From positions 1 to 46,906 of the forward strand of contig JAOZPE010000023.1 of NCBI GenBank assembly GCA_029932915.1: a stretch of 46,906 nt of DNA, in the 5' to 3' direction. Source of the stretch: Candidatus Krumholzibacteriia bacterium (lineage in GTDB: Bacteria; Krumholzibacteriota; Krumholzibacteriia; JAJRXK01). Below, piece after piece: positions 1-46,906 of the stretch. Position numbers and translations under genes: made by a program. A model generated the notes under the pieces. It worked only from the letters and a program-made list of their open reading frames with translations, made no database searches and was not told where the DNA came from. Position 1 is the stretch's first letter, and the number at the start of each line of letters is the position of its first letter.

Positions 1-88
1 CTACGTGGAGAACCAGTCCCTGTGGCTCGACCTGCGTATCATCCTGCTCACCATCAAGAGCGTGATCAAGGGCGACAACGCCTATTGA
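1..88 (+). CDS. Sugar transferase (polyprenyl-phosphate glycosylphosphotransferase), C-terminal fragment
   Basis: Only the last 28 codons lie in the window, read from base 2 and ending with TGA at 86-88. The fragment contains ENQSLWLDLRIILLTIKSV, which matches the usual tail of bacterial sugar transferases of the WcaJ/WbaP type (a Trp-Ser/Leu-Trp-x-D segment followed by a hydrophobic helix and a short polar end). Such enzymes move a sugar-1-phosphate from a nucleotide sugar onto undecaprenyl phosphate at the inner membrane and so start a glycan repeat. The catalytic part lies upstream of the window and cannot be judged. The next gene begins 24 bases later, so the two probably share an operon. 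Confidence 0.7.
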   Translation, partial: YVENQSLWLDLRIILLTIKSVIKGDNAY

Positions 89-37011: not shown

Positions 37012-37935
37012 ATGGCTTCCGGCGGCTTCCGCTTCGGCGTCGTGGTGCTCAACTGGAACGGCCGCGACTTCCTGGACGATTGCCTCTCCTCGGTGCTGGC
37101 CAGCGACCATCCCGACTTCTTCGTCCTGCTCGTGGACAACGCGTCGACGGACGGCAGCGTGGAATGGGTGCAAGGTGCATTCGAGGGGGTCGAGGTGCTG
37201 GCCCTGCCCCGCAACCTGCGCTTCGCCGGCGGCAACAACGCCGGGATCGAGCGGGCCCTGCAACGCGGCGCCGACGCCATCGTCCTGCTGAACAACGACA
37301 CCCGGGTCGATCCCGGCTGGCTGCGGGCGCTGGCGGAGGTGCTGGCAGCCGAGGAGGGGGTGGGGGTGGTCGGCCCCCGCATCTGCTACTTCGACGAGCC
37401 CGAGCTCATCTGGTACGGTGGGGGGCGCTTCATCCGTCCGCTGGGGTGGGTCTTCCACCGGGCCCTGCGGCGTCGCGTGGACGAGCGGGCCGACCCGGCC
37501 GGACCCACCGACTGGGTCTCCGGCTGCGCGCTGGCCGCGCGGGCCGAGGTGTGGAGGCGGCTCGGCGGACTGGATGAGAGCTACTACATCTACGCCGAGG
37601 ACGTCGACTTCTGTCTGCGGGCGAGGCGGATGGGGGTGGAGATCCGCTACCAGCCGGCGGCGCTCGTCCTGCACAAGGTGAGCGCGTCGGTGGGAGGGGC
37701 GGTCTCCGCTTTCAAGGCGTACCACAAGAGCCGGGCCGGTCTGCACCTGCTACGGCGCCACCTGCGCGTCTGGGAGCTGCCGGGTGCGCTCGCCGGGCGC
37801 GCGGTCCACGACGGCGCCGTCGCTCTCCGTCTGCTCGCAGGAGGACACGGCGGAGCCGCCGCGGCGGTCCTGCGGGCCTGGGTGGACGCCGCCCGGGGCC
37901 GTGTCGGTTTTCCGGTCGGGGAGGATGGTCCATGA
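37012..37935 (+). CDS. Glycosyltransferase family 2, rhamnosyltransferase-like
   Basis: 307 residues. The GT-A fold shows VVVLNWNGRDFLDDCLSSVL, VDNASTDGSVEWVQGAF, RNLRFAGGNNAGIERAL and LLNNDTRVDPGWL, with NDT as the metal-binding part, then FYIYAEDVDFCLRARRMG-like residues (YYIYAEDVDFCLRAR), typical of WbbL/rhamnosyltransferase relatives. It is soluble or peripheral. Four bases follow the previous gene, and its stop overlaps the YfhO gene. The acceptor and donor are not known. Confidence 0.85.
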   Translation: MASGGFRFGVVVLNWNGRDFLDDCLSSVLASDHPDFFVLLVDNASTDGSVEWVQGAFEGVEVLALPRNLRFAGGNNAGIERALQRGADAIVLLNNDTRVDPGWLRALAEVLAAEEGVGVVGPRICYFDEPELIWYGGGRFIRPLGWVFHRALRRRVDERADPAGPTDWVSGCALAARAEVWRRLGGLDESYYIYAEDVDFCLRARRMGVEIRYQPAALVLHKVSASVGGAVSAFKAYHKSRAGLHLLRRHLRVWELPGALAGRAVHDGAVALRLLAGGHGGAAAAVLRAWVDAARGRVGFPVGEDGP

Positions 37936-40412
37936 GCCACACGAGGAGATTCGCCCGGATGGGTCCGGCGGCCCTGCTGCTGATCGTCCTGGCCAGCGTG
38001 CTGTTGCACCCGGAGCAGTACGGCGGCCGGATCTACTCGAGTTCGGACGCGCGTGCGGTGGAGGCGTTCAAGGTGGTGGGCGACCGCATGCTCGCCGAGG
38101 GGACCTATCCACTGTGGAACCCCTACGTCTTCATGGGCATGCCCTCCTACGCCAGCCTGGCCTACACCCCCGGGGTCTATCCCCTGGAGCGGCCGGTCGA
38201 TGCCTTGAGGCGCTGGGCACACCTTCCCCCGATGAGCTGGCTGCTCTTGCACATCCTCCTGCTCGGGTTGGGAACGACGGGCTATCTGCGGTGGCGCGGC
38301 CACAGCTGGGCGGCGGCGGTGACGGCGGGGGTGGCGATGATGGCCATGCCCAAGTTCGTGGCCTGGTGCGCCTACGGACACGGCACCAAGGTGATGAGCA
38401 TCGCCTGGATGCCGTGGATCCTGTGGATGATCGAAGGCGTGTTGCGCCGGGGACGGTGGGCGTGGTCGCTCGCCCTCGCTCTGGTCCTGGGGACGGCCCT
38501 GTTGCGCGCCCACGTGCAGATCGTCTACTACATGGGCATCGCAGGTCTCTTCTGGTTCGGCTTCCTGGGCCTGACGCGGTGGAAGGAGGAGGGGGGAGGC
38601 CGACTCGTGTTGCGCCGCAGCCTCCTGCTGGCGGTCGCAGTGGTCCTGGCCCTCGGCCTGGCCATGGTCCTGTTCCTTCCCGTTCTGCAGTACCAGGCGC
38701 ACAGCGTCCGGGGGGCGGCGAGCACCGGCGGCGGCGTCGACTACGCCTACGCGACGGGTTGGAGCCTGAGCCCCTCGGAGATCGCGACCTTCTGGTGGCC
38801 GACGGCCGCCGGCTACGGCAAGCTCGCCTACGTGGGGGGCATGCCCTTCACCGACTATCCCCAGTATCTGGGGCTGCCCCTGCTTCTCCTCGCGCTGCTG
38901 GGTCTGCTGCTGCGGCGCGATCGCTGGGCGTGGATGCTCGCCAGCCTGGCCCTGCTCGCCACCCTGGTGTCCCTCGGGCGCAATGGACCGATGTACCGTC
39001 TGTTCTACGAAGTGTTGCCCGGCTTCAACAAGTTCCGCGTTCCGGTGATGATCCTCATCCTCCAGGAATACGCGGTGGTCCTGCTGGCCGCGGCGGGGAT
39101 GGACGAACTGCTCGCCTGCCTCGACCGCTCCGGGCGGCCGAAGTGGCTTTCCAGCGCGCTGGCCCTGCCGCTGATCCTCCTTGGAGTGATCCTGTTGGCG
39201 TTGGGGAGCGTGGCTTCCGGTGCGCTCACCGACGCTTCCCTGAGACACTGGTCGTCGTTGCGCCCGCAGGTACCGCTGGATGCCCTGCGCGCCGTGGCGC
39301 ATCTGGCCGTGGGCGATGCCCTGCGCCTGGGGCTGGTGTTGCTGGTGGCGGTGGGGGCCGCGGTTGCCCACCGTCGGGGCCGCCTGCCCGCGGCGGGTCT
39401 GCTGGTGGTGTGGGGTGTGCTCATCTTCTTCGACCTGTGGGCCGTCGACCGTCCCATCACCCATCCGGAGCGCTACCTGAAGGCGGCCGCCCGCGACGAG
39501 CAGGGCCGCATGGTGAGTGCGGATGCACCGGCGGTGATCCAGCCGGTGGAGGTGGCCCGCAGCTACGTGGCGTCCAACGGCGCCCTGGAATTCCTGGCCG
39601 GTGTGGAGAGCTATCCGCGGGTGTGGCCGCTGGGGGCACTCGCCCAGGAGAACGTCTATGGTCCGCAGGGGATCGTGAGCCTGGGCGGCTACCACGCCGC
39701 GAAGCTGCGGATCTACGAGAGTCTGCGCCGCCGCCTGTATCCCGCCCGCGGTGGTGTCGACCTCGGCCTGGTGAAGCTCCTGGCGGCGGGATGGGTCCAT
39801 GTCGAGACGCCGCTGGACGAGGCGACCCTCACGGCGTTGTCCCAGCGGGGCATGAGCCTGGAGGAGGCCTACCGCGGCGACGGGGGCGTGGTCTACCGCA
39901 ACCGCGGCGCCGGCCCGCGTTGCTGGCTCGTCGATTCCTTCGAACTGGAGCGGCCGGGGACGGATACGACTTCGTCCGAACCGGAGCCGGCCGTGCTCGG
40001 GCGTGTCCTGGACGGCCACCTGCCCCTGGAGCGCCTCGCGGTGCTCTCGGCGGCGCCGGTGCCGGCGCCCGCGCCGGGCGCGGAGGGGTCCATCGAGCGG
40101 CTCGAGGAGAGCGAGCAGAGGATCGTGTTCACCGCGCGCCTGGACCGGCCGGCGGTCGCCGTCTTCGCCGACGTGTTCTACCCGGACTGGCGGGTGGTGG
40201 TGGACGGGCGTCGAGCGAAGCTGCTGCGGGCCGACTACGCGCTGCGGGCGGTGGCGCTTCCGGCGGGCGAACACCGGATCGAGTTCGTCTACCACGACGG
40301 CGCATTCCAGGCCGGACGGTGGATCCAGAGGGTGAGTTTTCTGCTCATCCTTCTGGCTCTGGCCCTGGTGGTGTACAATCGAAGGCGATCGAAGGTCTCC
40401 CAGCCGTCGTGA
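37932..40412 (+). CDS. YfhO family large membrane protein, GT-C-like
   Basis: 826 residues. Early in the protein, RIYSSSDARAVEAFKVVG lies in the first outer loop, followed by GTYPLWNPYVFMGMPSYASL, both typical of the YfhO family. About ten membrane helices fill residues 10-510, then a soluble domain extends to about 800, and one last helix ends the protein (SFLLILLALALVVYN). YfhO proteins resemble GT-C transferases using polyprenyl-phosphate sugars; in Bacillus, YfhO has been linked to glycosylation of lipoteichoic acid. The ATG overlaps the preceding stop. The real substrate is unknown. Confidence 0.8.
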   Translation: MSHTRRFARMGPAALLLIVLASVLLHPEQYGGRIYSSSDARAVEAFKVVGDRMLAEGTYPLWNPYVFMGMPSYASLAYTPGVYPLERPVDALRRWAHLPPMSWLLLHILLLGLGTTGYLRWRGHSWAAAVTAGVAMMAMPKFVAWCAYGHGTKVMSIAWMPWILWMIEGVLRRGRWAWSLALALVLGTALLRAHVQIVYYMGIAGLFWFGFLGLTRWKEEGGGRLVLRRSLLLAVAVVLALGLAMVLFLPVLQYQAHSVRGAASTGGGVDYAYATGWSLSPSEIATFWWPTAAGYGKLAYVGGMPFTDYPQYLGLPLLLLALLGLLLRRDRWAWMLASLALLATLVSLGRNGPMYRLFYEVLPGFNKFRVPVMILILQEYAVVLLAAAGMDELLACLDRSGRPKWLSSALALPLILLGVILLALGSVASGALTDASLRHWSSLRPQVPLDALRAVAHLAVGDALRLGLVLLVAVGAAVAHRRGRLPAAGLLVVWGVLIFFDLWAVDRPITHPERYLKAAARDEQGRMVSADAPAVIQPVEVARSYVASNGALEFLAGVESYPRVWPLGALAQENVYGPQGIVSLGGYHAAKLRIYESLRRRLYPARGGVDLGLVKLLAAGWVHVETPLDEATLTALSQRGMSLEEAYRGDGGVVYRNRGAGPRCWLVDSFELERPGTDTTSSEPEPAVLGRVLDGHLPLERLAVLSAAPVPAPAPGAEGSIERLEESEQRIVFTARLDRPAVAVFADVFYPDWRVVVDGRRAKLLRADYALRAVALPAGEHRIEFVYHDGAFQAGRWIQRVSFLLILLALALVVYNRRRSKVSQPS

Positions 40413-40467
40413 TGAGTCTTCTCGGGCCCCGTGGATCCCCGGGCGAATGCAGGAGAGTGCCGACCCG

Positions 40468-41175
40468 ATGAAAGCCCTCGTGGTCATCCCCACCTACAAC
40501 GAACGCCACAACATCGGGCGGATCATTCCCCGCGTCCTCGAACAGGGTCCGGGGATCGAGGTGCTTGTCGTCGATGACAACAGTCCCGACGGCACCGGCG
40601 TGCTGGTCCAGGAGATGGCCCAGCGCGACGAACGGGTGCATCTGTTGCAACGCGAGGGAAAGCAGGGTCTGGGGACGGCCTACATCGCCGGTTTCAAGTG
40701 GGCGCTGAACCACACCGACGCCGAGTACATCTTCGAGATGGATGCGGACTTCTCCCACGATCCCGCTGCCATTCCCGAGTTCCTGGAGACGATCGAGAAC
40801 TGTGATCTCGTCGTCGGCAGCCGTTACGTGAACGGCATCACGGTGATGAACTGGCCGCTGTCCCGCCTGTTCCTCTCGGTCTTCGCGAACTACTACGCGG
40901 CCGCGGTCACCGGTCTTCCCCTGAAGGACTGCACCGGAGGTTTCAAGTGTTTCCGGCGCAGGACCCTGCAGGGCCTGCCCCTGGACCGTATCCACAGCGA
41001 CGGCTACAGCTTCCAGATCGAGATGAACTACCACGCATGGAAACGTGGTTTCCGGATCCGGGAGATCCCGATCGTCTTCAGCGACCGCGTGGTCGGTGAG
41101 AGCAAGATGTCCCGGCGCATCATCTGGGAAGCCGCCTGGATGGTGTGGCGGCTGCGATTCTTCCCCGGTGCCTAG
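40468..41175 (+). CDS. Polyprenol monophosphomannose synthase (DPM1-type)
   Basis: 235 residues, the short soluble DPM1 form. KALVVIPTYNERHNIGRIIP, VDDNSPDGTGVLVQEM, GLGTAYIAGFKWAL and FEMDADFSHDPAAIP are canonical, as are DCTGGFKCFRRRTL and GYSFQIEMNYHAWKRGFRI. It would transfer mannose from GDP-mannose to a polyprenyl phosphate. GDP-mannose should come from manB/manC at 9151-11621. The ATG at 40468 (11 bases after AGGAGAG) is preferred over 40447. Confidence 0.88.
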   Translation: MKALVVIPTYNERHNIGRIIPRVLEQGPGIEVLVVDDNSPDGTGVLVQEMAQRDERVHLLQREGKQGLGTAYIAGFKWALNHTDAEYIFEMDADFSHDPAAIPEFLETIENCDLVVGSRYVNGITVMNWPLSRLFLSVFANYYAAAVTGLPLKDCTGGFKCFRRRTLQGLPLDRIHSDGYSFQIEMNYHAWKRGFRIREIPIVFSDRVVGESKMSRRIIWEAAWMVWRLRFFPGA

Positions 41176-41191
41176 GGTGAAGGCGGACTCC

Positions 41192-43297
41192 GTGCGGGAT
41201 CCATCGATCGACCTCACGCTCATCCTGGTGAGCTATCACAGCCTCCAGCCGCTCAAGGCGTTCTTCGAGAGCTACCGCCGTCATCCCATCGCGGCCCAGC
41301 ACGAGATCATCGTGGTGGACAACGCGGCCGGCGATGGGACGGCCGAGTGGATCGCCGCGAACCACGGCGAGGTGAAGGTCATCGCCATGGAGGGCAACCA
41401 GGGTTACGCGCGCGCCGTCAACCGGGGGATCGAGGAGGGACGGGGCCGCAGTTTCCTGGTCATCAATCCCGACGTGGAGTTGTCCGAGGGCGGGGTCGAT
41501 GCGGCCCTGCAGTATCTCACCGAACATCCCGAAGTGGGGATCGTCGGTGCTCGCTTGCTCAACCGCGATGGAAGCCGGCAGCACAGCGCCCGGCGCTTCT
41601 ACACCCTGCAGACCATCCTTCTGCGGCGGACCCCGTGGGGGCGTCTCCAGCCCGACCATCCGCAGTTGCGCCGGCACCTGATGCTCGACGACGAGCTCGA
41701 TCATCCCCGCCCGGTGGACTGGGTCATCGGCGCGTGGATGCTGGTCCGGCGTGAAGCCGTCGAGAAGGTGGGCCCCATGGACGGGCGTTTCTTCCTGTAC
41801 TTCGAGGACGTCGACTGGTGCTACCGCATGTGGACCAGCGGCTACGAGGTGCACTACTTCCCCGGCGCGTCCTTCGTCCACGCGTACGAACGCAGCAGCG
41901 GCCGCCTCAACCGGACGCTCCTCTATCACCTGCGTTCCTTCGTGAGCTTCTACGACAAGTGGGGCGCCCTGATCTACGTGGCCAAGCGGATGCGCGGGAG
42001 CTGGGAGAAACTCCTGTCCTTCATCGTCGATCTCCTCCTGCTCAACGGCGCCTTCGCCCTGGCCTACCTCACGCGCCGGCTGCTCGATCCGGTGTTGCCG
42101 TTGCCGCTGTATTCCCTGGGGGACTATCTCCCGCTCCTGGCGTTCACCAACGTGGTGGGCGCGTTCACCCTTCCCCTCTCCGGGCGCTACCGTGAGCGCT
42201 CGAGCTCCCGCCGGCTCTCCCGGTGGATCGATGCCGCACGCATCTCCCTCGTGGTGACCTTCGTGGTCATGGCCGGCACCTGGCTGGCGCACACCCGCAC
42301 CTTCAGCCGGCTGGTCATCGTCTTCCTCATTCCCTGGCTCACGGTGGCGTTGGTCCTCTCCCGTTCGTTGCTGCGGCGGCTGTGGGGGAGGGCCCAGGGT
42401 GAGGGAAGGGTCGACCGGGTGCTCCTGCTGGGGCCGGCCCGGCAGGTGGAGCTCCTGCGCGATGAACTGCGTGAGGAGGACGGTGAGGCCTTCGTCGTGG
42501 CCGGAGCGGTCTGGACCGAGCCTCCCCGGGAGGGGACGATCATCTCCACCCGTTCCTTGGGTGAGGTGGACGAGATCGCGGAGATCCTCGAGACGCGGCA
42601 CATCAGTGAGCTGCTCATCGCCGGAGAGGGTGAGGCCGACCGCCCGGCGGTTGCCGCGGCACAGGAGGCGGCGGTGCAGGGGATCACGGTGTACCTCTCC
42701 CATCCCTGGGCATCGGTGCTGAAGGGACTGCCCTTCGTCCGCCGCCGCCACGGCCGACACTGGTGGCTCATTCCGCCGCCGCCGGCGGTGAGTGGAGGGA
42801 TGTGGAGCAAGGTGGCGCTCGACCGGTTCGGGGGAGTCCTCCTCTGGCTTCTCACCCTTCCCGGTTTCGTGCTATGCTCGCTTGCGGGAAGACCGGTGGG
42901 TCTGGTGGGCGTCCGCCGGATCCGCCGTCTGGGTCAGCGCCGGCAGGTGGTCGAGTGGACGGAGCTGGTCGATCGCAGGGGACGGCCCCTTGCGGGCTTC
43001 GTGCAGGCCCCGACGGCCTTTCTGGCCTTGAGTGGACGTTTCAGTCTGGCCGGGCCCTATCCTCTTCCTCCTCGGCTCGAAAAGGAGCTTGAGCCCATCC
43101 ACTTGTTACGGTTCGCGGTCAAACCGGGATTGAGCGGTCTGTGGCAGCAGGGGCGTTTCACGCTGGACGAACTGTTGCGTGCCGATCTCGAATACCTGGA
43201 GACCTGGTCCTTGACCCTCGATCTCGATCTCTTCCTCTCGGGACTGCCGCGACTGCTCGCATCCCGGGAGCTGTGGCATCGACTCTCCTCTTCTTGA
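41192..43297 (+). CDS. GT2 fused to a degenerate polyprenyl hexose-1-phosphate transferase
   Basis: 701 residues if started at the GTG at 41192 (GAAGG eight bases upstream; GTG 41177 is an alternative). Residues about 1-260 are a GT2 domain: LILVSYHSLQPLKAFFESYR, VDNAAGDGTAEWI, GNQGYARAVNRGIEEG, VINPDVEL, and YFEDVDWCYRMW. About 275-400 are four or more membrane helices, about 405-515 a Rossmann-like segment (VDRVLLLGPARQVELLRDEL), and about 520-701 a sugar-transferase-like end with PGLSGLWQQGR (645 onward) and YLETWSLTLDLDLFLSGLPR. The KFRTM and Asp-Glu (SLDELPQ) elements are missing: the aligned pair is Val604-Gln605, and GPRP is GPYP. The last domain is probably inactive. Confidence 0.82.
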   Translation: MRDPSIDLTLILVSYHSLQPLKAFFESYRRHPIAAQHEIIVVDNAAGDGTAEWIAANHGEVKVIAMEGNQGYARAVNRGIEEGRGRSFLVINPDVELSEGGVDAALQYLTEHPEVGIVGARLLNRDGSRQHSARRFYTLQTILLRRTPWGRLQPDHPQLRRHLMLDDELDHPRPVDWVIGAWMLVRREAVEKVGPMDGRFFLYFEDVDWCYRMWTSGYEVHYFPGASFVHAYERSSGRLNRTLLYHLRSFVSFYDKWGALIYVAKRMRGSWEKLLSFIVDLLLLNGAFALAYLTRRLLDPVLPLPLYSLGDYLPLLAFTNVVGAFTLPLSGRYRERSSSRRLSRWIDAARISLVVTFVVMAGTWLAHTRTFSRLVIVFLIPWLTVALVLSRSLLRRLWGRAQGEGRVDRVLLLGPARQVELLRDELREEDGEAFVVAGAVWTEPPREGTIISTRSLGEVDEIAEILETRHISELLIAGEGEADRPAVAAAQEAAVQGITVYLSHPWASVLKGLPFVRRRHGRHWWLIPPPPAVSGGMWSKVALDRFGGVLLWLLTLPGFVLCSLAGRPVGLVGVRRIRRLGQRRQVVEWTELVDRRGRPLAGFVQAPTAFLALSGRFSLAGPYPLPPRLEKELEPIHLLRFAVKPGLSGLWQQGRFTLDELLRADLEYLETWSLTLDLDLFLSGLPRLLASRELWHRLSSS

Positions 43298-43306
43298 GCG
43301 AACCGT

Positions 43307-45748
43307 ATGAAGCGACATCGAATCCATCTCGTGGTTCCCTTCCTCGCGTTGCTTGCGCTGGTGGTCCCGGTGTCGCAGGCCGGTGCCAGCCTGTCGAACA
43401 CCCAGCCGTGGGCCAGCGCGTCCCAGCTCCTGCAGGTCGACCGGATGGTCCTCTTCCATGGCCAGCTGGTGGCCGGCACGCCACGGGGCGGTCTGCTCCT
43501 GGTCGATCCGGCCAACGGGGCGGTGGCGCGCTTCAACAGCGGGGACGGACTCATCTCCGACGCGGTCAGCGATCTCACCGTCGACGAGAACGGCATGTTG
43601 TGGGTGGGCACCGGAGGCGATGGCTTCGGCGCGGCCGGACTCTGCCGCATCGATGCCAGTTGGAAGGTCCGACCGGTTTCCCAGAACCTGGCCTCGCTGG
43701 AGATCACCGCCGTCTCCGCCGACGGTGAGTTCGTCTACTACGGCACCCGTTCGGCCGGAGCGGGACGCCTTTCCTCCGGGCTTCCCGATGCGATCTACAC
43801 GCAGGCGACCCACGGCCTGGCCGACGATCACATCCTGAAGATCTCCGCGTACGACCGCAGGACCTGGTTCTCCACTGCCGGCGGCGTCAGCCGCCTGCAG
43901 GACAACGTCTTCACCACCATCACCGAGGGCCTGACGATACCGGTGGTCCGGGACATCCTCGCCTGCCCGCTCGGCGTCTTCGCCGCCGATCGCATCGGCG
44001 TGAAACGCTTCGACGAGGCGACCGAGCAGTGGGTGGAATGGGGGACGGGGCTCGCCGACAGCCTGCTCGCACTGGCCGTCGACGGCGGCGATCTGCTCGC
44101 TCTGGGATGGGCCGGCACCGCGTGGAGGCTTCCCGCCGGCGAGAGCGTCTGGCGCCCTCGTGCGCTCGACACCAACTGGCGGCGCTACATGACCCTGGCT
44201 GCGGACGCCTCGGGCCACGTGTGGTACGGGGGCACCCAGCTCGATCTGATGCGCACGCTCCAGGGCCCCATCGCGTTGATCCACGAGCCCGATCAGGGGA
44301 TCTCGTTGGTCGTGGCGGGTCTGCTGGGAACCAATGTGCAGAACATCGTCCCCGACGGGGAGGGCGGGCTGTGGGTGAGTTGCCTGGCTCCGTACAACGG
44401 ATTGACGCACTGGCGCGCCGACGGGGGCTTCATCCGCTACGACTTCGTCGAGGATGTCGCCGGTTTCGGCTGGTGTGAGAACCGGACCAAGTTCGGCCTG
44501 GCGCGCGACACGCGCGGTGACCTGTGGGTGAGCAACTTCCGCGCGTGCCTGACCCGGCTGCGTCCCGCTGCGAGCGACATCCCATCGGAAGCGGAGTTCC
44601 TGCATCTCGATGTCGGCGAAAGCCCCCTGCGTCTGCTGCGCATCCGCGAGATCGAGGTCGATCCGCAGGGCAGGATCTGGCTGTTGAGCGAGGGCGACGC
44701 CGGTGATGCCGGTCTGGGGATCGACATCATCGAGGATCCCACGCGCCCGATGGATGCGGATGCGTGGAGGGAACTCTCACCCTCCAACAGTCTGCTGGCC
44801 GACGGCTGGGTGAAGAGTGTGAGCTTCCAGCCCCCCGGTGTGGCCTGGATCAGTGTGGAGGGCTCGGGGGTGCAGCGATGGGACTACGACGGGCCGCTCG
44901 ATGACGGGGTGATGCGGCAGGGTCAGTTCATGCTCGAATCGGCCTGGGATCTCATTCCCTATGTCGGGGCATCGCCGACCGTCTCCTTCCAGTCGCCCCG
45001 TCAGGTGGCGATCGCCCCGAGCGGTCTCATCTACATCGCGGCCGCCGATCTCGGTGTGGTCGAGCTTCGCTACACCCCCTACGCGGCCAGCCCCTACGAC
45101 CGGATCCATTTCCTGAGGGTCTTCCGCAAGGGCCAGGCCGGCGTGGGCCTGCTCAGCGGGGATGCCAGCGGGGTGGTCTTCGACGAGCGCGGAGCGTTGT
45201 GGGTGTCGAGTTCGGCGGGATTGAATCGCCTTCGCGATCTCGATGGTGAGTTGAAGATCGACGCGTGGACCACGGTGGAGGGTTTCACCACCTACCAGCT
45301 CCAGCTCTCGGGCTATCGCAGCGATGTGCTCTCGCCCATGGCCGGCAGCAATCTGCAGCGCCTGCTCTACGATCCCGATCGGCGGGAAGTGGTGATGGGG
45401 AGCACCTCGGGGGTCACCCGGGTGCGGAGCGATCTGGAACTTCCCCCCTCCGGGGTCGACGGGGACGTCTCCTTCGTGCTCCGTCCCAATCCCTACCCCG
45501 GTCCCGGCGGAGACGATCGGGGGGTCTTCGTCACGGGGATCTCCGGAGAGGGCGAGGTCGAGGTGGAGATCTACGACCTGCAGGGTGTGCTCATCGCCCA
45601 GGGGCGCTTCGCGGTGGAGGAACTCGCGACCCGTCCGGTGTGGGACGTCAAGGACCGGCAGTTCAACCCGGTCGCGAGCGGGATGTACGTGGTGCGGATC
45701 ACCCGGGCCGGCACGAGCTCGGTGGCCATCCTGGCGGTGGAGAGATGA
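43307..45748 (+). CDS. Secreted beta-propeller protein with FlgD/T9SS-like C-terminal domain (PorZ-like)
   Basis: 813 residues. The signal peptide (about 1-28) is followed by two-component-regulator-type propeller repeats (GGLLLVDPANGAVARFNSGDGLI, then LTVDENGMLWVGTGG, and later IAPSGLIYIAAADLG, FDERGALWVSSSAGLNRLRD). The last 100 residues (VSFVLRPNPYPGPGG, VEVEIYDLQGVLIAQG, WDVKDRQFNPVASGMYVVRI) form a FlgD-like/type-IX-like C-terminal domain. The size and order resemble PorZ, a T9SS surface protein that binds A-LPS. The Shine-Dalgarno is weak. It lies between the GT2 fusion and a dehydratase gene, both glycan genes. Confidence 0.75.
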   Translation: MKRHRIHLVVPFLALLALVVPVSQAGASLSNTQPWASASQLLQVDRMVLFHGQLVAGTPRGGLLLVDPANGAVARFNSGDGLISDAVSDLTVDENGMLWVGTGGDGFGAAGLCRIDASWKVRPVSQNLASLEITAVSADGEFVYYGTRSAGAGRLSSGLPDAIYTQATHGLADDHILKISAYDRRTWFSTAGGVSRLQDNVFTTITEGLTIPVVRDILACPLGVFAADRIGVKRFDEATEQWVEWGTGLADSLLALAVDGGDLLALGWAGTAWRLPAGESVWRPRALDTNWRRYMTLAADASGHVWYGGTQLDLMRTLQGPIALIHEPDQGISLVVAGLLGTNVQNIVPDGEGGLWVSCLAPYNGLTHWRADGGFIRYDFVEDVAGFGWCENRTKFGLARDTRGDLWVSNFRACLTRLRPAASDIPSEAEFLHLDVGESPLRLLRIREIEVDPQGRIWLLSEGDAGDAGLGIDIIEDPTRPMDADAWRELSPSNSLLADGWVKSVSFQPPGVAWISVEGSGVQRWDYDGPLDDGVMRQGQFMLESAWDLIPYVGASPTVSFQSPRQVAIAPSGLIYIAAADLGVVELRYTPYAASPYDRIHFLRVFRKGQAGVGLLSGDASGVVFDERGALWVSSSAGLNRLRDLDGELKIDAWTTVEGFTTYQLQLSGYRSDVLSPMAGSNLQRLLYDPDRREVVMGSTSGVTRVRSDLELPPSGVDGDVSFVLRPNPYPGPGGDDRGVFVTGISGEGEVEVEIYDLQGVLIAQGRFAVEELATRPVWDVKDRQFNPVASGMYVVRITRAGTSSVAILAVER

Positions 45749-46906
45749 AGCGCAGGGTCCTGATCATCGGGGCCGGTTCGGCCGGCCGCATGATCGCCCG
45801 CGAACTGCTCGAGGCGGGCGAGGACTACCGGCGGGAGGTCGTCGGTTTTCTCGATGACGATCCGGCCCTGGCGGGTGAGACCATCGAGGGGATCGAGGTC
45901 CTGGGCGACAGCAGCGAGGTGCACCGCCGGGTCGCCGAGTACCACATCGACGAGATCATCCTGGCCATTCCCTCCGCTCCGGGATCGGTGGTCCGGCGCC
46001 TGATCTCGCAGGCCCAGCGGGCCCGCGTTCCGCTGCGCATCGTGCCCGGACTGCGCGACATCATCAAGGGGACCGTCCGCTTCGAACAGGTGCGGGAGAT
46101 CGCTCCGGAGGATCTCCTCGGCCGGGAGACCGTCGATCTGGTGGAGGGTCCGATCCGCGATGCGGTCGAGGGGCGCGAGGTCCTGGTGACCGGGGCGGGC
46201 GGTAGCATCGGGGCCGAACTCTGCCGTCAACTGGTTGCGTTCCGGCCCGCCCGTCTGTGGCTGCTGGGCCGGGGCGAGAACTCGCTCTTCGAGATCGACG
46301 AGGAGCTGCGCGACGCCCTCGGCTATCAAGACGCCCGCGTCGTGATCGCGGATGTGCGCGACGGCGAGCGCCTCGAATTCCTCGCCGGCGAGATGCGCCC
46401 GGACGTCATCCTCCACGCCGCCGCCCACAAACACGTCCCCTTCATGGAGATCTATCCCGAGGAAGCGGTGATGGTGAACGTGGTGGGCACCCACAACCTC
46501 CTGCGCTTCGCCCGGATGGTCGAGGCCGAGCGCTTCGTGATGTTGTCGACGGACAAGGCGGTCCAGCCGCGCAGTGTGATGGGTTCGACCAAGAGGATCG
46601 CCGAGTTCCTCGTCCAGGAGGCGGCCCGGGAGGACGGAGCCCGCTACATGGCGGTCCGCTTCGGCAACGTCCTGGGCAGCCGGGGCAGTGTGGTTCCCAT
46701 CTTCCAGAGACAGCTGCGGCGGGGCGGGCCCCTGACGGTGACCGACCGCCGGGCCACCCGCTTCTTCATGACCATCAAGGAAGCGGCGATGCTGGTGATC
46801 CAGGCCATGGCCGGAGGACAGGGGGGAGAGGTGTTCATCCTGGACATGGGGGAGGCGATCCGGATCTACGAGCTCGCCCGGAACGTCATCGCCCTGGCCG
46901 GTCTGG
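45745..46906 (+). CDS. CapD/FlaA1-type nucleotide-sugar dehydratase, soluble form, 3' truncated by window end
   Basis: At least 387 residues; the reading frame runs off the window. Residues about 1-125 are a Rossmann-like CoA-binding segment (RVLIIGAGSAGRMIARELLE, VVGFLDDDPALAG, EIILAIPSA). From about 150 comes the SDR domain: LVTGAGGSIGAELCRQL, ILHAAAHKHVPFME, MLSTDKAVQPRSVMGSTKRI (Ser/Met/Lys type active site) and RFGNVLGSRGSVVPIF. The usual four N-terminal membrane helices of WbpM/PglF are missing. These enzymes make UDP-4-keto-6-deoxy-GlcNAc for surface glycans. The ATG overlaps the propeller stop. Confidence 0.88.
   Translation, partial: MKRRVLIIGAGSAGRMIARELLEAGEDYRREVVGFLDDDPALAGETIEGIEVLGDSSEVHRRVAEYHIDEIILAIPSAPGSVVRRLISQAQRARVPLRIVPGLRDIIKGTVRFEQVREIAPEDLLGRETVDLVEGPIRDAVEGREVLVTGAGGSIGAELCRQLVAFRPARLWLLGRGENSLFEIDEELRDALGYQDARVVIADVRDGERLEFLAGEMRPDVILHAAAHKHVPFMEIYPEEAVMVNVVGTHNLLRFARMVEAERFVMLSTDKAVQPRSVMGSTKRIAEFLVQEAAREDGARYMAVRFGNVLGSRGSVVPIFQRQLRRGGPLTVTDRRATRFFMTIKEAAMLVIQAMAGGQGGEVFILDMGEAIRIYELARNVIALAGL

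Follow-up and report, generated by a model that had tools for sequence, protein, structure and literature searches.

The closest described relatives of the protein analysed here are the monotopic PGTs. In PglC, an Sm-PGT (Campylobacter concisus, 8g1n / 8e37), the active site is formed by an Asp-Glu dyad with Mg, UndP is bound by Arg88 and Arg145, and the dyad is described as common to all monotopic PGTs (PMC10519829); the UDP-sugar is contacted by Met63, Arg79 and a mobile loop of 20-30 residues (PMC12550135). In the Lg-PGT WbaP (Salmonella enterica, 8t53), a bundle of four transmembrane helices, a DUF (PF13727) and a beta-hairpin precede the monotopic PGT fold, and the hairpin mediates homodimer formation (PMC10942596). 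Bi-PGTs, which combine a PGT with another functional domain, have also been described (O'Toole 2021, as cited in PMC10942596).

A different combination is encoded in the window, by which we mean the whole 46,906-nucleotide stretch of Candidatus Krumholzibacteriia DNA that was analysed. Towards its end lies a gene that the earlier note had described as a GT2 fused to a WcaJ/WbaP-type transferase without catalytic residues. The features of this gene and of its surroundings are as follows.

1..88, forward strand: end of an ordinary Lg-PGT gene (28 residues and the stop codon); the remainder is probably on contig C29 (L002)
37932..40412, forward strand: YfhO-like membrane glycosyltransferase, a conserved neighbour
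40447..41175, forward strand: DPM-type GT2 (dpm), polyprenyl-phosphate sugar synthase-like, adjoining the fusion here and in other phyla
41192..43297, forward strand: fusion gene of GT2, four transmembrane helices with DUF (4TM-DUF) and pseudo-PGT; 701 residues, GTG start, TGA stop
41204..41911, forward strand: GT2 domain, residues 5-240, closest to TIGR01556 rhamnosyltransferases; NPD (92-94) and E205-D206-x-D208
41993..42397, forward strand: N-terminal membrane helices of Lg-PGTs, residues 268-402, four long helices in the AlphaFold2 model
42398..42706, forward strand: Rossmann-like DUF of Lg-PGTs (PF13727), residues 403-505
42734..42772, forward strand: beta-hairpin between DUF and PGT domain, residues 515-527 (model strands 515-519 and 522-527)
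42800..42889, forward strand: helix where monotopic PGTs have their re-entrant membrane helix, residues 537-566
42947..43000, forward strand: degenerate KFRTM strand and shortened mobile loop, residues 586-603
43001..43006, forward strand: Val604-Gln605, where the catalytic Asp-Glu dyad is expected
43058..43060, forward strand: Tyr623, replacing the GPRP Arg
43124..43147, forward strand: PG-x-x-GLWQ loop, kept, residues 645-652
43307..45748, forward strand: PorZ-like beta-propeller with a type IX secretion system (T9SS) C-terminal domain, a conserved neighbour
45265..46905, forward strand: open frame with a UDP-sugar dehydratase of the WbpM/PglF type, truncated where the contig stops; it overlaps the propeller gene, so its true start must be later

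The fusion frame is open throughout, and an alternative in-frame GTG at 41177 would add five residues. Pfam detects a GT2 domain (PF00535) at residues 10-156 (57 bits), CoA_binding_3 at 329-502 and Bac_transf at 610-685 (41 bits against a cut-off of 27), while the EPS_sugtrans/WcaJ type of NCBIfam covers the C-terminal part. The four transmembrane helices and the PF13727 DUF, which is detected in 44 of 45 fusion homologues, precede the PGT domain as in Lg-PGTs. The AlphaFold2 model of the full-length protein (pLDDT 87 overall, about 94 over the PGT part) has WbaP 8t53 as its top PDB match; when the C-terminal 197 residues were modelled alone, PglC and WbaP were the sole PDB matches at E <= 0.001 (TM 0.61-0.62, about 0.62 for PglC). 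The family profile also detects both enzymes by sequence (WbaP, E 8e-28; PglC, E 1e-24), and the PGT fold together with helix 537-566 matches the monotopic PGTs (PF02397), a re-entrant topology being predicted. As modelled, the C-terminal part is thus a PGT fold and not an unrelated one. The module order is that of WbaP, from which the window protein differs by the extra GT2 in front and by the absence of the Asp-Glu dyad, KFRTM and the mobile loop. Domains, alignment and fold all bear out the fusion as it was first described. The N-terminal domain resembles the TIGR01556 rhamnosyltransferases with its motifs intact, but scores far under the family cut-off (66 versus 201 bits), so that no donor sugar can be assigned. 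Taken together, sequence and model show a GT2 with intact motifs joined to a complete Lg-PGT of the WbaP/WcaJ type that is predicted to be catalytically dead.

The loss of the active site was followed residue by residue. Alignment to solved WbaP places Q605 on the catalytic Glu (E383, chain 30us_A), and hence V604 at the position of the Asp; GPRP reads GPYP, GLWQ and YLETWSL are retained and KFRTM is missing, exactly as had been read from the letters. The segment before the dyad position measures 23 residues versus 47 in the genome's own Lg-PGT (24 shorter). When the PglC sites were mapped through the family profile (chain numbering equals native plus 4), the dyad, the Met63 strand, the loop and the Arg88 segment were found to be lost or deleted; a GR at 654-655 may match PglC Arg145, although this pair is not conserved. 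Compared with PglC, the shared fold is therefore without the catalytic Asp-Glu, the Met63/Arg79/Arg88 segment and the GPRP Arg, and no Asp-Glu pair occupies the site in the model. On alignment and model alike, the PGT half has lost catalysis.

This loss extends well beyond one protein. The query matched in 97 of the 98 genomes searched, and over 60 species of the window's own class gave long matches from GT2 into the 4TM-DUF. Among named records, Candidatus Krumholzibacteriota MAGs come closest, and a contig search gave further relatives in Candidatus Eisenbacteria. For comparison, 75 distinct fusions were taken from Krumholzibacteriota, Eisenbacteria and a few further lineages; the dyad is absent in 74 of them, the exception being L126, which is also the only one with KFR[ST]M. 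The Asp alone is kept (as D-R) in six of the 75. The segment from the ERxG motif to the dyad position measures 23 residues in 44 fusions and 30 in 21, as against 47-57 in active Lg-PGTs. An assembly error or frameshift behind the loss was rejected, as 74 independent sequences share it. A second candidate for a dyad-bearing fusion, L012, was also dismissed: the DEIP found by pattern search sits downstream, in 'SSDEIPL', outside the active site. The GT2 motifs NPD and E-D-x-D are present in 75 of 75; with these metal/nucleotide motifs the N-terminal domain conforms to the GT-A fold of GT2 enzymes, and the GT2 half is probably active, judged by the same motifs.

One could imagine that the PGT half remains active through a relocated nucleophile, such as an Asp two residues before the dyad position, and position 602 is indeed Asp in 18 of 45 homologues. 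The window protein, however, has Gly602, and no conserved acidic pair, GPRP Arg or mobile loop is left; we consider this explanation highly improbable.

The one intact relative bears on how the dead domain arose. L126 (from G214) is a GT2-Lg-PGT fusion with KFRSM and SLDELPQ intact and no dpm neighbour. In the GT2 tree its place is beside the degenerate L124 and L125, within the fusion clade of Krumholzibacteriota and Eisenbacteria (96/91); in the 4TM-DUF tree, which has several long branches and open forks, it again sides with the fusions and is separate from the canonical Lg-PGTs (100/98). The position of an intact protein inside a degenerate clade suggests that the ancestor was probably bifunctional and that PGT activity was lost afterwards; the PGT domain of L126 may instead have been regained rather than inherited. 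A second set of fusions (G250, G254, G080 and G086), degenerate or without a PGT domain, is separate in both trees, and the fusions likely arose twice on this phylogeny. A recent duplication of the neighbouring Lg-PGT as the origin of the fusion was not supported, since the two branch apart in the 4TM-DUF tree.

In some lineages decay has gone further. The proteins of G080 and G086 consist of GT2-4TM-DUF only, and in G002, from the window's own family (L074:9845-11371), the protein ends at about residue 544, after the DUF, with the whole pseudo-PGT missing and no PGT remnant detectable between the protein end and the propeller gene. Elsewhere the domain is maintained: in 22 close pairs dN/dS was 0.05-0.24 for the GT2 and 0.16-0.49 for the pseudo-PGT in all 22. 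By this measure the pseudo-PGT is under purifying selection, weaker than that on the GT2 and clearly non-neutral. With a loss of catalytic residues common to many species and selection on the fold, the domain qualifies as a pseudoenzyme, predicted to be non-catalytic. The earlier proposal of a pseudoenzyme is thus strongly supported: the fold is kept while all tested catalytic and substrate-binding elements are lost, across two phyla. We read the domain as an ancient pseudo-PGT.

These patterns also bear on what the dead half does. Its best-supported role, which we regard as moderately probable, is that of a scaffold or membrane platform on which the GT2 is docked. The membrane helices, the DUF and the re-entrant helix are retained, the PGT domain decays or vanishes while the GT2-4TM-DUF stays, and selection is purifying; docking of the GT2 on the membrane by the PGT part, one of the roles first suggested, is favoured by all three. 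Retention of the pseudo-PGT in most species, even though it is dispensable in a few, indicates that it may do more than anchor. It might, for instance, still bind the polyprenyl-diphosphate-sugar acceptor and present it to the GT2. The retained membrane-facing fold and the purifying selection would fit such substrate holding, as would the basic or amide residue (Q, K, N or R) that most homologues carry instead of the catalytic Glu. Yet the contacts of PglC to UndP and UDP-sugar (Arg88, mobile loop, GPRP Arg) are deleted or not conserved, and G002, G080 and G086 lack the domain while the rest of the protein is kept, which makes this role quite doubtful.

Separate, intact Lg-PGTs accompany the fusions. 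PF02397 matches were found in all 78 class genomes, and among the 19 separate Lg-PGTs read the DELP-type dyad is intact in every one and KFR[ST]M in 17. The earlier note had placed a full, ordinary transferase ending at position 88: its end is there, but the window holds just the last 28 residues. On contig C29, an Lg-PGT with KFRTM and SLDELPQ is interrupted where the contig stops, and ~30 bases at the 3' end of C29 overlap the window start, within the Lg-PGT gene, at 2-3 mismatches. C29 likely joins the window start, judged by this overlap, and the interruption is probably an assembly break. In six relatives (G001, G002, G008, G029, G032 and G044) an intact Lg-PGT lies ~41-48 kb upstream on the same strand, and the same spacing seems to hold in the window. 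Directly after the Lg-PGT end, the window carries a UbiA-type prenyltransferase and a DUF362 gene (113-2078); in G254 such a pair adjoins the dpm-fusion genes (L149:5125-9080).

This co-occurrence, which the earlier note had proposed to look for, would suit a regulatory or recruiting pseudoenzyme, the other role suggested there, whose dead half pairs with the active Lg-PGT via the DUF hairpin and so places the GT2 by fresh substrate or tunes the PGT. The dimerising hairpin and the 4TM-DUF module are retained (PMC10942596), and the intact gene recurs upstream of the fusion. The window segment between the two is, however, largely composed of housekeeping genes, which makes one operon unlikely, and the 4TM-DUF part is fast-evolving and strongly unlike that of the cluster's Lg-PGT. 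We regard such recruitment as unlikely, and favour the membrane platform.

The neighbourhood offers hints about the product. The order YfhO, DPM-type GT2, fusion, propeller was constant in the Krumholzibacteriota loci read, dpm-fusion-propeller being found in 20 of the 20 loci examined, from seven families, and a WbpM-like gene in 15; in Eisenbacteria the order is YfhO-dpm-fusion-WbpM. PorZ was the best family of the propeller in eight of eight cases tested, each below the curated cut-off (45 of 260 bits in the window). In Porphyromonas, PorZ brings A-LPS to the PorU sortase (PMC8545088). The genome encodes PorU (428 bits, cut-off 420), SprA over its cut-off and dozens of T9SS C-terminal domains.

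Two further observations concern these gene sets. The propeller (43307-45748), of the two-component type, is a possible glycan-delivery partner of PorU outside Bacteroidota. In G080 and G086, from two other phyla (L153:3343-11837 and L154:3851-11675), dpm, the PGT-less GT2-4TM-DUF gene, accA, a thioesterase-like gene and PorU stand in an operon-like arrangement, and the dpm-fusion-accA order also occurs in G250 and G254.

The membrane-platform reading can be put as a sequence of steps. A GT2 would have been fused before an Lg-PGT, giving a bifunctional enzyme whose PGT half then lost catalysis. The platform, probably dimeric, would consist of the four helices, the DUF and its dimerising hairpin, and the PGT fold with its re-entrant helix; it would keep the GT2 at the inner face of the inner membrane. 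There the GT2 may add to a lipid-linked sugar for which another, intact PGT has carried out the priming step. To judge by the neighbouring genes, the pathway probably yields a surface glycan or a glycolipid that works together with type IX secretion, perhaps an anchor similar to A-LPS. GT2-4TM-DUF would be the essential core, and the pseudo-PGT an addition kept under weaker selection that can be lost. A bolder version appears rather unlikely: a phylum-wide pseudo-PGT family would serve as a dedicated membrane hub, partner the active Lg-PGT, pass that enzyme's product on to the GT2 and so build a glycolipid anchoring type IX cargo outside Bacteroidota.

The earlier note knew of no described case of this arrangement. 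Bifunctional PGT fusions are in fact known, and only L126, with a catalytic PGT and another functional domain, fits the Bi-PGT class as PMC10942596 presents it; by that account the window fusion differs, its retained partner being the GT2 and its PGT predicted to be dead. A catalytically dead PGT, for its part, was not found in the literature searched, which covered few subscription papers. A conserved and selected family without the dyad would be the first pseudoenzyme branch of the monotopic PGT superfamily relative to the literature searched. Its intact relative and several losses offer a natural experiment on the roles of the 4TM-DUF and the PGT fold beyond catalysis, and the locus points to a glycan gene set linked to type IX secretion in uncultured phyla.
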